A stretch of 64,000 bases of DNA from Hyphomonadaceae bacterium (lineage in GTDB: Bacteria; Pseudomonadota; Alphaproteobacteria; Caulobacterales; Aquidulcibacteraceae): NCBI GenBank assembly GCA_009773395.1, contig WRPI01000002.1, positions 296,413-360,412 on the forward strand, in the 5' to 3' direction. Positions within the stretch are counted from its first letter, which is position 1; each line of letters begins with the position of its first letter. The translations under genes and the position numbers were made by a program. A model generated the notes under the pieces. It searched no databases. It had not been told where the DNA came from and worked only from the letters and a program-made list of their open reading frames with translations. Below are positions 43,819 through 51,879 of the stretch, one piece after another.

Positions 43819-46446
43819 CTATTTCGCCTTTTTAGCGGCGGGTTTTTTAGTGGTTGGCTTTTTGGCTGCAGGCTTTTTGGCGGCAGGTTTCTTTGCTGCC
43901 GCGCGTTTGAATTTGCCTTTTTTGGCAGGGCCAAGCGCCGCTCGTGCCGCCAATAATCCCAATGCGATTTCGAGCGTCAAAGCGTCTTGCGTCACATCTT
44001 TTGGTAAAGTCGCATTGGTCATGCCATCGGTGACATACGCACCATAGCGTCCGCTCATCAACTTAATCGCAGCCTCGGTTTCGGGGTTTGTGCCAAGCTC
44101 TTTCAGTGCAGCAGGCGCGCTCCGTCCACCCTTAAATCCGCCTTCGCGTTTTTGCGCCAAAAGCGCAACTGCATGGTTGAGGCCAATTTCAAAAACATCA
44201 TTAGAATCAGCTAGATTGGCGTATGTCCCGTCATGCAATATGAAGGGACCAAAACGGCCAAAATTGGTAATTATTTCCTTGCCATCTTCGGGGTGATTGC
44301 CAATTACGCGCGGCAAATTCAAAAGCATCATTGCGCGTTCGAAATTCATTTCGTTCACGGTCCAATTTTTAGGAATTGAAGCGCGTTTTGGCTTTTCTTT
44401 TGAGCCTTTTTCTGGATTTTCGCCCAATTGGACATAATTACCAAAACGGCCATTGCGCAAACTAACCGATAATCCAGTTTCGGGATCTATTCCCAATTCT
44501 TGGGTGTCGCCATTCATATTTTCGGCATCGCCATTTTCGCCAGCATTGCCCAATTTGCGAGTAAATTTGCATTCGGGGTAATTGGAACAGCCAGTGAATG
44601 AGCCAAAACGGCTTAATTTCAAACTCAAAACCCCATCGCCGCAACTTGGGCAGGCGCGCGAGCTTTTTCCGTCAATATTCGGGAATAAATAGCCCGCCAT
44701 TTTTTCGTTTAGCGCGTCAATAACTTGGGTAATTCGCACTTCGGCAATATCGTCTATGCCTTGGTTGAAATCGATCCAAAATTCACGCAATAATTGTTTC
44801 CAATTGAGATCGCCCGCCGAAACCAAATCCAGTTTTTCTTCTAAATCGGCAGTGAAATCATATTGCACGATTTTGCCAAAAAAGCTCTCGAGAAAGCCAA
44901 TAACCAAGCGCCCTTTTACTTCGGGGTGGAAGCGGGCTTTTTCGAGCCGCATATATTCGCGGTCCTGCAAAACGCTCAAGGTTGAAGAATAGGTGGAAGG
45001 GCGGCCAATGCCGATTTCTTCCATTTTCTTCACCAAAGTCGCTTCGGAATAGCGTGGTGGCGGCTCGGTGAAATGTTGGGTTTCGGCTATTTCATCGACT
45101 TTTACTGCATCGCCGACCACAAGTTTTGGCAATTTTGCGTCTTCATCATCGGCTTCGTCGTCTTTGCCTTCTTGGTAAAGCGCGTAATAACCATCAAATA
45201 ATATTACTTGGCCGGTGGCGCGAAGCGTGGTTTTGCCATCATTGGCTTCCATATCAATTGTGGTGCGTTCAATTATTACTTGCTCCATTTGGCTCGCCAT
45301 AGTGCGCTTCCAAATAAGCTCATAAAGGCGCGCCATATCGGGCTCTAGCCGCAATGATTTTGGCTCGCGCATTATATCAGTTGGGCGAATTGCTTCATGG
45401 GCCTCTTGCGCGTTTTTGGCTTTGACCGAATAAAAACGTGGTTTTTCTGGCACATATTTATCACCAAATTTGCCCCCAATTGCCTCACGAACCGCATTCA
45501 TCGCGCCTATATCCATGCTGACGCCATCTGTTCGCATATAGGTGATAAGGCCGACAGTCTCGCCGCCAATATCGACACCTTCATACAAGCGCTGCGCCAC
45601 GCTCATGGTGTGTTTGGTGTTAAAACCAAGTTTGCGCGCGGCTTCTTGTTGCAAAGTGGAGGTGGTAAATGGCGGCGGCGGATTGCGCTTGACGGGCTTG
45701 GCTTCGACCGATGCAACTTTATACGAAGCGCCGCGCACCAAATCGGCGGCGGTTTTTGCACTTGCGGCATTTGGTAAATCATATTTGCCAAGTTTTTTGC
45801 CATTCAGCGTAATAAGGCGCGTGGGAAATTTAATGCTTTCTTTGGCTTGGCCTTTGCCTTCAATGGTCCAATATTCGGTGGTGATGAAAGCTTCAATTTC
45901 CTGCTCACGCTCGACAACCAGCCTTAAAGCCGCAGATTGCACGCGGCCCGCAGAACGCGCCCCGGGCAATTTGCGCCACAAAACTGGCGATAATGAAAAG
46001 CCCACCAAATAATCAAGCGCGCGGCGCGCCAAATAAGCGTCCACCAATTCTTGATTTATTTCACGCGGATTTGCCATGGCCTCAAGCACGGCGGGCTTGG
46101 TGATGGCATTAAAAGTAACGCGCGAAACCGGCACTTTGGCTAATAGTTTTTTATCACGCAAAACTTCGATTATATGCCAAGAAATCGCTTCGCCCTCTCT
46201 ATCAGGGTCGGTCGCGAGAATTACGGCTTCGGATTTCTTTACCTTGTCGGCAATGTCTTTAATGCGTTCCTTGCCGCGCCCATCGGCTTCCCAATGCATT
46301 GCAAAATCGCGTTCAGGCTCAACCGAGCCGTCTTTCGAAGGCAAGTCCCGCACATGGCCAAAACTGGCAATTACTTCATAACCATTGCCCAAATATTTAT
46401 TAATGGTCTTGGCTTTGGCAGGTGATTCAACGATTACTAATTTCAT
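43819..46446 (-). CDS. topA: DNA topoisomerase I
   Basis: Relaxes negative supercoils through a tyrosine-DNA intermediate. The TOPRIM domain starts at VIVESPAKAKTINKYL and holds ATDPDREGEAISWH. The active Tyr303 is in GLITYMRTDG. A C4 zinc finger (CPSCGDGVL to CSNYPECKF) and DUF-type repeats follow. The extreme C-terminus is a Lys/Ala/Pro low-complexity tail made of repeated AAKKP units. The length of 875 fits alphaproteobacterial TopA. In relatives dprA usually lies just upstream; here a ~1.1-kb insert separates them. Confidence 0.96.
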   Translation of the reverse strand: MKLVIVESPAKAKTINKYLGNGYEVIASFGHVRDLPSKDGSVEPERDFAMHWEADGRGKERIKDIADKVKKSEAVILATDPDREGEAISWHIIEVLRDKKLLAKVPVSRVTFNAITKPAVLEAMANPREINQELVDAYLARRALDYLVGFSLSPVLWRKLPGARSAGRVQSAALRLVVEREQEIEAFITTEYWTIEGKGQAKESIKFPTRLITLNGKKLGKYDLPNAASAKTAADLVRGASYKVASVEAKPVKRNPPPPFTTSTLQQEAARKLGFNTKHTMSVAQRLYEGVDIGGETVGLITYMRTDGVSMDIGAMNAVREAIGGKFGDKYVPEKPRFYSVKAKNAQEAHEAIRPTDIMREPKSLRLEPDMARLYELIWKRTMASQMEQVIIERTTIDMEANDGKTTLRATGQVILFDGYYALYQEGKDDEADDEDAKLPKLVVGDAVKVDEIAETQHFTEPPPRYSEATLVKKMEEIGIGRPSTYSSTLSVLQDREYMRLEKARFHPEVKGRLVIGFLESFFGKIVQYDFTADLEEKLDLVSAGDLNWKQLLREFWIDFNQGIDDIAEVRITQVIDALNEKMAGYLFPNIDGKSSRACPSCGDGVLSLKLSRFGSFTGCSNYPECKFTRKLGNAGENGDAENMNGDTQELGIDPETGLSVSLRNGRFGNYVQLGENPEKGSKEKPKRASIPKNWTVNEMNFERAMMLLNLPRVIGNHPEDGKEIITNFGRFGPFILHDGTYANLADSNDVFEIGLNHAVALLAQKREGGFKGGRSAPAALKELGTNPETEAAIKLMSGRYGAYVTDGMTNATLPKDVTQDALTLEIALGLLAARAALGPAKKGKFKRAAAKKPAAKKPAAKKPTTKKPAAKKAK

Positions 46447-46672
46447 GGATTATTTCTATGCAAAGTTCCCAAGTTTTGCCTTGGGGCTTTAAGGGCAACT
46501 TTGTCAATAGAATGAAACTTAGCATTTGTGCAAATGGAATTGCATTATTGGCGGAATTGCGCAAAAATGTATATTTGTTCGGCGGCTATGGCGCGAACCA
46601 ACTGCAAGTAAAATTTGACACTGAATATGGGGCAAAAGGAAACCAATGTTTTACGGAGCAAAACCAAAGCAA

Positions 46673-46694
46673 AACCAATAATGCAATTGAAAAC
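46673..46694. repeat. 22-bp direct repeat, copy A
   Basis: AACCAATAATGCAATTGAAA plus AC, identical to 47110-47131, with further similarity for about 14 bases. Both copies, read in the frame of the ACC codon, encode TNNAIEN followed by xxGK. Copy A precedes the small gene at 46751. The surrounding 46447-46750 (304 bp) holds no gene I would accept. It may be decayed coding DNA. Confidence 0.75.
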
Positions 46695-46750
46695 TCTTTT
46701 GGAAAATCCAGATCTGTGACCCGAAATATGATTATTAGGGAGCCGTTTTG

Positions 46751-47041
46751 ATGGGACTTTATAATGAACTAATCGTGGAAGACCCTGACCTAGGCAAATT
46801 TGATATACAATTCAAGTTTGGTGAACTGTGGTTATATAAATATAAAATAGGCGATTGCCTAAGACTGGCTGACAGTCAAATGGGACTTAAGCACGGTGTT
46901 TATATTGCGTCTGGAATAGCAAATATCTCAGGTACGTATTATTATTTCAAGATAACATTTAGAGACGCTATAATCATAAAATATGAGCAAATAAGTGAAT
47001 CGGAATATGATATATTGGTATTTTCGGAGCGCAATTTATGA
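46751..47041 (+). CDS. Small protein, possible orphan immunity-type protein
   Basis: 96 residues from the ATG at 46751 with GGGAG about ten bases upstream. The N-terminus MGLYNELIVEDP, followed by FDIQFKFGELWLYKYKIGD, resembles a group of small MGLFN/MGMFD-type proteins often met beside polymorphic toxins. The zinc-ribbon cysteines found in many of them are absent. It is AT-rich, on the opposite strand to its conserved neighbours dprA and topA, and has no toxin gene next to it. The immunity role is inference only. Confidence 0.55.
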   Translation: MGLYNELIVEDPDLGKFDIQFKFGELWLYKYKIGDCLRLADSQMGLKHGVYIASGIANISGTYYYFKITFRDAIIIKYEQISESEYDILVFSERNL

Positions 47042-47109
47042 TTGCAATAATTAGAGATTAAATTTCGATATTTCGGTGAAAGTTCGTTAATTACAAAACC
47101 AAAGGTAAG

Positions 47110-47131
47110 AACCAATAATGCAATTGAAAAC
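47110..47131. repeat. 22-bp direct repeat, copy B
   Basis: Identical to 46673-46694 and 437 bp away, ending 12 bp before the start of the small gene at 47144. The same reading frame (TNNAIENISGK) runs into that gene's ATG without a stop. Upstream it is open from about 47053 (EIKFRYFGESSL). This suggests a duplicated, partly decayed coding segment rather than a regulatory repeat. Confidence 0.75.
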
Positions 47132-47143
47132 ATCTCTGGGAAA

Positions 47144-47482
47144 ATGAAAAATATTGATGAATTAGAGTTTCTATTAGGTGCGCAAATTGAAGAAATATCG
47201 TTTGTTGCAGACTATGTCGAATTGAAAAATGAATTTGGGATAATTCGACTGCTTGGGTTCACCGAATTGACTGTAGCTGGATGCCAAATCGCGGATGGCG
47301 ACGACCAGTTTGAACACGAAATTCGCAAGCTCATAGGCGCTACTTTGACTTGTTTTCAATTTGTTGAAGATGAGGTGGTGCAGGTTTTGCTTTCCAATAA
47401 TGTTATCGCCAAGTCCACATCCAAAGGATTTGAAATCATGCACTTCGTTTATAGCAAGACCGGACAAGTCCTGGTGTGGTAG
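47144..47482 (+). CDS. Small acidic protein, possible orphan immunity-type protein
   Basis: 112 residues. The pattern LLGAQIEEISFVADYVELKN, a middle RKLIGATLTCFQFVEDEVV and a final aromatic GQVLVW resembles a common family of small beta-rich hypothetical proteins seen as candidate immunity factors. GGG lies about four to six bases before the ATG, so the ribosome site is weak. It is convergent with dprA (52-bp gap) and out of place in the conserved order. The assignment is by resemblance only. Confidence 0.55.
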   Translation: MKNIDELEFLLGAQIEEISFVADYVELKNEFGIIRLLGFTELTVAGCQIADGDDQFEHEIRKLIGATLTCFQFVEDEVVQVLLSNNVIAKSTSKGFEIMHFVYSKTGQVLVW

Positions 47483-47533
47483 CGTGTAGGTGATGAGATA
47501 TATCAGATTAGTTGAAATAGAGGCCGCAATTAA

Positions 47534-48622
47534 CTACCTCACACTCGAAACCCTATTCCCACTCGTCATAACCGCGCGACCTTCAAGTTCAAGTTCCACT
47601 ATAATCGCAGCAATTGTGCGCCAAGGAAGTGATGTTATTTCACATAATTCATCAATTGAAATTGGGGTGGGGGATAGTAGGACTTCGATTTGTTTTATGG
47701 TGTTTGCGCTGGCTTCAATTGGTGCGGCATTGCCATAAATGCCTTTACCTTCAGGCTCGGCAACCCTTCCGAAGCCTTGCAAACAGGCATGCACATCGGC
47801 GGCATTTGTTACCAAATGTGCGCCTTGTTTAATCAGCCCGTTGGGGCCGGCGGCGCGTGGATCCAAGGGTGAACCCGGCACAGCCATAACTTCACGGTTT
47901 TGTTCAAGGGCAAAACGCGCGGTTATGAGTGAGCCTGATTTTTCTTCGGCCTCGGTAATGATAACGCCCGAACATAGGCCAGAGATTATGCGGTTACGGC
48001 GCGGAAAATCGCGCGCGGTTACTTCGGCATTGAGAGCATTCTCCGAGACCACAAGGCCGATTTCTTTGATATTGTGATATAATTCAGCGTGTTCGGCGGG
48101 GTAAATATGATCAATGCCGCCCGCGAGCACTGCGATTGTGCCAGTGCTTAGTGCCGCTTTGTGCGCTGCGCCATCAATGCCGCGCGCAAGACCCGACACC
48201 ACCACATAGCCCATTGCACCAAGCCCCGCGCTTAATACACGGGCAATGCGAATGCCAATTGCCGAGGCATTACGCGCGCCAACAATGCCCACCATCGGTT
48301 TTTGCAAAAGTGACAAATTGCCAATAACGCTTATGACAGGTGGAGGCGGGGCAATTTGCGCAAGATTATTGGGGTATTCATCGTCAATAACTCGCAACAT
48401 TTTGCCACCGAATTGTTGAGTGGCGGCAATTTCATTTTGAATATCTTCCAACGCGGGGATTCTGTATTTTTGCGCGCCGCTTTTGGTGTTGAAGCGTGGC
48501 ACGGCATCAAGCGCGGTTTTGGCGTCGCCAAATTTTGCCAAAAGGCCAAAAAAAGTTACAGGCCCAATGCCTTCGGTGCGGGCAAGGCGCAGCCAATGCA
48601 CAAGGTCGTTATTCTTGCTCAA
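47534..48622 (-). CDS. dprA: DNA processing protein DprA
   Basis: Binds incoming single-stranded DNA and loads RecA during transformation. The Rossmann-like core carries VGIVGARNASAIGIRIARVL, VVSGLARGIDGAAHKAAL and IAVLAGGIDHIYPAEH. A C-terminal winged-helix region follows (ISIDELCEITSLPWRTI). The length of 362 is normal. It starts with TTG at 48622, overlapping the plsY stop (TTGA). No other competence gene is in the window. Confidence 0.94.
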   Translation of the reverse strand: MSKNNDLVHWLRLARTEGIGPVTFFGLLAKFGDAKTALDAVPRFNTKSGAQKYRIPALEDIQNEIAATQQFGGKMLRVIDDEYPNNLAQIAPPPPVISVIGNLSLLQKPMVGIVGARNASAIGIRIARVLSAGLGAMGYVVVSGLARGIDGAAHKAALSTGTIAVLAGGIDHIYPAEHAELYHNIKEIGLVVSENALNAEVTARDFPRRNRIISGLCSGVIITEAEEKSGSLITARFALEQNREVMAVPGSPLDPRAAGPNGLIKQGAHLVTNAADVHACLQGFGRVAEPEGKGIYGNAAPIEASANTIKQIEVLLSPTPISIDELCEITSLPWRTIAAIIVELELEGRAVMTSGNRVSSVR

Positions 48623-51571: not shown

Positions 51572-51646
51572 TTATGAGGATGGAATTTCAGACAGATGGC
51601 GCGGTAAGTCCATTTTTTCGTGAAGGATTCTTACAATTTCAATGGT
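51572..51646 (-). pseudogene. ParE toxin remnant (last 24 codons)
   Basis: Just past and overlapping the end of parD, another frame reads TIEIVRILHEKMDLPRHL followed by SEIPSS and a stop. This is the usual C-terminal end of ParE/RelE-fold toxins. The rest of the toxin, about 75 residues, is missing: the parD frame joins directly to this tail. It is best explained by an internal deletion that fused the parD 3' end to the parE 3' end. The product could not be a toxin. Confidence 0.8.
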
Positions 51647-51879
51647 GCTTCTTTTTTTCGTGAAATGAATTTGTCAAAGTCAAACGGTTGCGCGGGGCCA
51701 CTTTCTTCGCCTTCAATCAGTGCTTCTCTCAGTTTTTGAATTTTTAATTCATGTTCCTCCAAAAGCCTTAGCCCCGCCCTGACAACTTCGCTGGTTGAAC
51801 TAAAGCGCCCGTTGTTGACTTGGAAATCAACAAATTGCGAAAAATGTGCGCCCAGACTTATCGAAGTATTCTTGTTCAT
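51631..51879 (-). CDS. parD: ParD-type antitoxin
   Basis: 82 residues. The N-terminal ribbon-helix-helix has SISLGAHFSQFVDFQVNNG and FSSTSEVVRAGLRLLEEHE, the standard ParD pattern for dimeric DNA binding. An acidic toxin-wrapping tail (ALIEGEESGPAQPFDFDKF) follows. The last few residues (APLKL) come from the deletion junction with the parE tail. GGAG precedes the ATG. It may still repress its own promoter. Confidence 0.85.
   Translation of the reverse strand: MNKNTSISLGAHFSQFVDFQVNNGRFSSTSEVVRAGLRLLEEHELKIQKLREALIEGEESGPAQPFDFDKFISRKKEAPLKL

Follow-up and report, generated by a model that had tools for sequence, protein, structure and literature searches.

Does the DNA between dprA and topA in this genome hold immunity genes kept after the loss of a toxin, as a preliminary description proposed, or accessory cargo of another kind? 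In the window (i.e., the whole 64,000-nucleotide stretch that was analyzed), the dprA-topA spacer measures 1,087 bp (positions 46447 to 47533) and is bordered by two minus-strand genes, topA (43819 to 46446, with its start at 46446) and dprA (47534 to 48622, with its stop at 47534). Both lie in a minus-strand run that we take to be pyrB-pyrC'-plsY-dprA-topA-rnr, the names other than dprA and topA coming from the preliminary description and from family knowledge. Two small genes, ORF2 and ORF3, are located in the spacer on the plus strand, opposite to the neighboring housekeeping genes. The locus had been described as ~1.1 kb of AT-rich DNA with two small plus-strand genes, and its composition agrees: the GC content of the spacer is 0.372, compared with 0.465 for the window, and only 2 of 1,259 same-size window tiles are equally low.

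The insert had been taken to span the entire spacer. This holds for ~46511 to 47533, a low-GC stretch of ~1 kb that is absent from the congeners G001, G002, and G004, as judged from gap lengths and composition. The remaining part, ~46447 to 46510 (minus strand), is the native topA leader and promoter-like region, kept beside the insert and delineated by alignment with the dprA-topA gaps of G001 to G004. A -35-like box, TTGACAAA (46500 to 46507, read on the minus strand), is common to all four congeners; the extra DNA is accordingly located past the box, with ~46447 to 46510 being native. The match of the leader with G001 and G003 is longer than TTGACAAA alone. As far as the sequence tells, dprA, topA, and the topA promoter-like box are all left intact by the insert.

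In the three congeners with an intact junction (G001, G002, and G004), the gap between dprA and topA is only ~75 to 90 bp, and the extra DNA is thus specific to the source species. Conservation of the gene pair at this place across the family was looked for and not found. The fourth congener, G003, has other cargo at the junction. On one contig, topA adjoins the N-terminal portion of a protease-like gene (Tricorn_C1 domain); on a different contig, dprA is followed directly by an S41 peptidase domain (E = 7.6e-29), so that the S41 peptidase gene is split over two contigs (L011, 1 to 740, and L065, 2577 to 3296); the two parts would form a single gene at the junction. Because G003 has other cargo there, the spot takes cargo. 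With the source genome included, two of the five genomes of the genus have cargo between dprA and topA, each of a different kind.

A survey of the topA junction covered 61 genomes, including the source genome, and the best 30 places were fetched, 29 of them from relatives. dprA was present in the fetched flank of 20 of these 29 places, with 81 to 454 bp between the end of the dprA match and topA; the 9 places without dprA in the flank (L011, L021, L023, L027, L028, L033, L034, L036, and L037) include some at contig ends. At four places from other genera (L014, L015, L024, and L038), an apparent small frame of ~70 to 90 codons, read by eye, was seen in a dprA-topA gap of 380 to 430 bp, on the strand opposite to dprA and topA. 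The gaps of G001, G002, and G004 are too short for such a frame.

In 2,000 dinucleotide-preserving shuffles, two same-strand open reading frames of at least 112 and at least 96 amino acids occurred at a frequency of 0.5%, and a single frame of at least 112 amino acids occurred at 7%; ORF length alone is therefore weak evidence. For both ORF2 and ORF3, a codon model with the genes of the window as its training set ranked the annotated frame best of six, with scores well under those of native genes (negative in the case of ORF2). ORF2 (46751 to 47041, plus strand; 96 amino acids from its ATG, beginning MGLYNELIVEDP) is preceded by AGGGAG, a good ribosome-binding site, and exhibits a codon-position GC bias. 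A third frame, ORF1 (46512 to 46751, plus strand; 79 amino acids), did not appear in the preliminary description and is doubtful. It starts just past the topA -35-like box, and its stop overlaps the ATG of ORF2 (TGATG). ORF1 alone had no match in viral contigs. It was dropped as a real gene because its GC content is flat by codon position and, queried as 46422 to 46748, it had no convincing relative in 150 genomes.

Also absent from the preliminary description is a repeat of ~50 bp that precedes both genes. Copy 1 (46659 to 46705, plus strand) lies 45 bp before ORF2, and copy 2 (47094 to 47143, plus strand) lies directly before the ATG of ORF3. The copies are three single-base gaps and a few mismatches apart, and their alignment score was 64 (best of 1,000 shuffles, 35). 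Because of the single-base gaps, the copies have no reading frame in common throughout, and the repeat is therefore not a conserved toxin segment. A pretoxin remnant was likewise rejected: (K/R)TNNAIEN is a possible reading of both copies, but the flanking single-base gaps break the frame. With up to 2 mismatches allowed, the genome contains no further copy of the 20-bp core of the repeat (other matches have 3), and a dispersed element was dropped because the core occurs only at its two places. The repeat may represent duplication of a leader or decayed DNA. Additionally, a 14-bp segment of the repeat recurs in inverted orientation at 46538 to 46551 (minus strand), 123 bp ahead of the copy 1 core, and matches 46675 to 46688 perfectly. 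With a further copy at 47112 to 47125, this word occurs three times, around ORF1 and before ORF3. Three matches to a 15-bp word, with one mismatch allowed, were obtained in 0 of 100 window shuffles.

Both genes had been said to resemble small immunity proteins found beside polymorphic toxins. The searches do not bear this out, as neither ORF2 nor ORF3 had a match in Pfam or NCBIfam (up to E = 1) or in PADLOC. Matches to PHROGs were at chance level, and, the source genome aside, no convincing match to either protein was found in 101 relatives or in 398 genomes of the phylum. Searched singly against plasmids, neither had a convincing relative. A housekeeping family was also sought for both proteins, and none was found. 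Weak matches that were opened (L008, L041, L045, L047, L055, L068, L069, and L130) were judged to be chance, and this verdict covers these eight; the L008 match, for example, is 58 bp inside a 749-amino-acid topoisomerase-like frame despite its E value of 2e-4. One of these places (L045, 572 to 1944; G039, of the same order) encodes an Rhs-like C-terminal protein, whose gene is overlapped by a small lipoprotein-like gene downstream. The two are perhaps a toxin-immunity pair, unrelated to ORF3 beyond chance.

On the searches made here, ORF2 is an orphan. Alone, it had no match in viral contigs. A guessed consensus used as the query for a family search retrieved nothing from plasmids or viral contigs and, from 378 genomes, the source genome plus two weak matches; it also led to small zinc-ribbon-like proteins of two Bacillus phages (BUCT083 and KLEB27-3). 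ORF2 shares with these an MG start and a QFK...E..L..Y..G stretch, and single BLASTP comparisons yielded E values of 0.002 and 8e-5. Unlike ORF2, the phage ("MGMFD") proteins have CxxC cysteines. Natural relatives of the phage proteins led to no further members in viral contigs, and a four-member profile gave ORF2 a nonsignificant E value of 0.39 (best of 200 shuffles, 39). The structure model of ORF2 was too poor to use (mean pLDDT, 55.8), with no PDB fold match below E = 0.18. By sequence, the PDB provided one chance-level match for ORF2 and none for ORF3.

ORF3 (47144 to 47482, plus strand; 112 amino acids) very probably belongs, as a divergent member, to an unnamed family of ~120 residues with the motif [VI][SCV]F[VI]xDY[VF][EQ]L. 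Alone, it had no convincing relative in plasmids, phages, or genome contigs. The family search began with a guessed consensus, for which ORF3 was part of the seed, and this consensus led to natural relatives on Streptomyces, Embleya, and Paraburkholderia plasmids. In single BLASTP comparisons, one natural relative aligned with almost all of ORF3 at 24% (E = 6e-10), and another showed no similarity. A scan of genome contigs for the family recovered 26 loci, from actinomycetes, Verrucomicrobiales, Chloroflexi, and Burkholderiales. Viral contigs, scanned in the same way, had none. We built a profile from 25 natural members (L090 to L114), without ORF3 and without the remaining locus (L115), whose match was a short piece in a long frame. 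The profile matched residues 3 to 112 of ORF3 with an E value of 4.8e-10 (Z = 25,000; best of 200 shuffles, 4.2), a match that is partly circular because the loci were selected by a motif from an alignment containing ORF3. With the motif masked, ORF3 scored 11.1 bits (E = 0.4), which indicates that much of its signal lies within the first 37 residues. E values against subprofiles ranged from 1.9e-7 to 0.029. In a control that kept the motif, none of 2,000 shuffles reached the 39.8 bits of ORF3 (best, 26.0). The nearest named family is Pfam DUF6188 (PF19686), with weak matches in 3 of 14 rows (13 relatives plus ORF3; best E = 0.017). The examined relative scores below the curated cutoff of this family, and ORF3 did not match it up to E = 1; a literature search for DUF6188 returned no papers. 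The structure model of ORF3 (mean pLDDT, 41.7) was too poor to use.

At two Burkholderiales loci (L109, 1 to 10285, and L100, 1 to 8911), one ORF3-family relative each lies within an array of small same-strand genes with attC-like repeats between them, i.e., as single genes in the manner of integron gene cassettes. The attC site is marked by the motif pair RYYYAAC...GTTRRRY. Both loci contain two strict sites, compared with shuffle means of 0.18 (L109) and 0.17 (L100); the shuffle maxima were 2 and 3, respectively, so this count alone is not decisive, and the array call rests on the repeat copies (11 to 13 in L109 and 5 to 6 in L100). Among 30 proteins neighboring ORF3 relatives, called by a simple ORF rule rather than taken from annotation, none had a toxin match; the matches include peptidase M78, acetyltransferase, 2'-5' RNA ligase, DUF4386, AHSA1, ATP-grasp, DUF7003, and amidase.

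We consider it probable that ORF2 and ORF3 form an accessory gene pair of lateral origin, which one species has acquired in the space between dprA and the topA promoter. Such a pair would enter by recombination at the cargo-tolerant dprA-topA junction and may grow by the joining of two modules with a common 50-bp leader. The ORF3 family, for its part, would move as single-gene cargo, in some Burkholderiales inside the cassette-like arrays. That the two genes are themselves integron-derived cassettes at a secondary site would suit two small same-strand genes with an ORF3 family found in such arrays, but it is very unlikely. Unlike the Burkholderiales loci, the insert has no attC motif pair, its repeats precede the genes and are not hairpin-like, and no integron integrase above the TIGR02249 cutoff was found in any of 101 genomes (the source genome and 100 relatives). 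Cassette insertion was dropped on these grounds of missing attC and integrase. A lack of any function, with the frames being remnants of decaying foreign DNA, would explain the low codon scores, the doubtful ORF1, and the small indels in the repeat. We think this improbable, given that ORF3 is intact from end to end against the family profile and that ORF2 has its ribosome-binding site and codon-position bias.

Orphan immunity, in which ORF2 and ORF3 would each neutralize a polymorphic toxin lost or never present and so guard against neighbors, is what the preliminary description favored. Its picture of a foreign-looking, species-specific insert stands; the resemblance to immunity proteins does not. 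Small single genes, a foreign composition, and two consecutive unrelated genes that follow a common repeat all point in this direction. The layout recalls immunity arrays left by displaced effectors in Vibrio cholerae type VI clusters, which, as here, consist of successive small genes that are unrelated and have no toxin with them (PMC5361080). In contrast to those arrays, the insert lacks both an effector cluster and a match to an immunity family, and its repeat keeps no frame. With Pfam, NCBIfam, and PADLOC silent, no toxin match among the 30 neighbors of ORF3 relatives, and no toxin gene or remnant recognized in the insert, we regard orphan immunity as doubtful. The pair may nevertheless have a neutralizing (immunity-like) role. 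Small cargo for defense against phages or stress is unlikely in our judgment. Some cassette genes are thought to act against phages or stress, and the ORF3 family, with members in cassette-like arrays and on plasmids, may do likewise; the weak likeness of ORF2 to phage zinc-ribbon proteins (E = 8e-5 in one comparison) would fit. PADLOC had no match, however, viral contigs and phages contained no ORF3 relative, and the ORF2 profile result (E = 0.39) was not significant. For the accessory pair, the single most likely mechanism, put forward tentatively, would be that ORF3, as a soluble protein, blocks incoming phage factors or harmful proteins by binding to them; other accessory functions of ORF3, taken together, are more likely than this role.

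A clearer case than the insert of the toxin-loss idea is found ~4 kb away, where a parD gene and a parE remnant occupy 51572 to 51879 (minus strand). The ParD antitoxin gene (51631 to 51879, minus strand) was matched by Pfam (E = 2.2e-33) and NCBIfam (E = 2.3e-27). The remnant consists of 16 codons that overlap the end of parD in another frame; their translation matches the C-terminal 16 residues of ParE-type toxins with solved structures (E = 0.033 and 0.78) and had no match in Pfam. Because ParE persists only as its ~16 last codons and the gap between parD and pyrB leaves too little room for a toxin gene, the antitoxin seems, from these sequence matches, to have been retained after the loss of the toxin.

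These results correct the label "immunity," which would otherwise pass into annotation, and assign ORF3, very probably, to a family without a name in Pfam or NCBIfam. They also describe a small, well-bounded, putatively acquired locus adjoining the competence gene dprA, at a junction with different cargo in two of the five genomes of the genus. It is a quite improbable combination that the ORF3 family is an unrecognized cassette-borne protective family spread over several phyla and, at the same time, that the dprA-topA junction is an integron-free site of single-gene swaps in the genus. If the ORF3 family is protective, its cassette-like spread would merit a survey.
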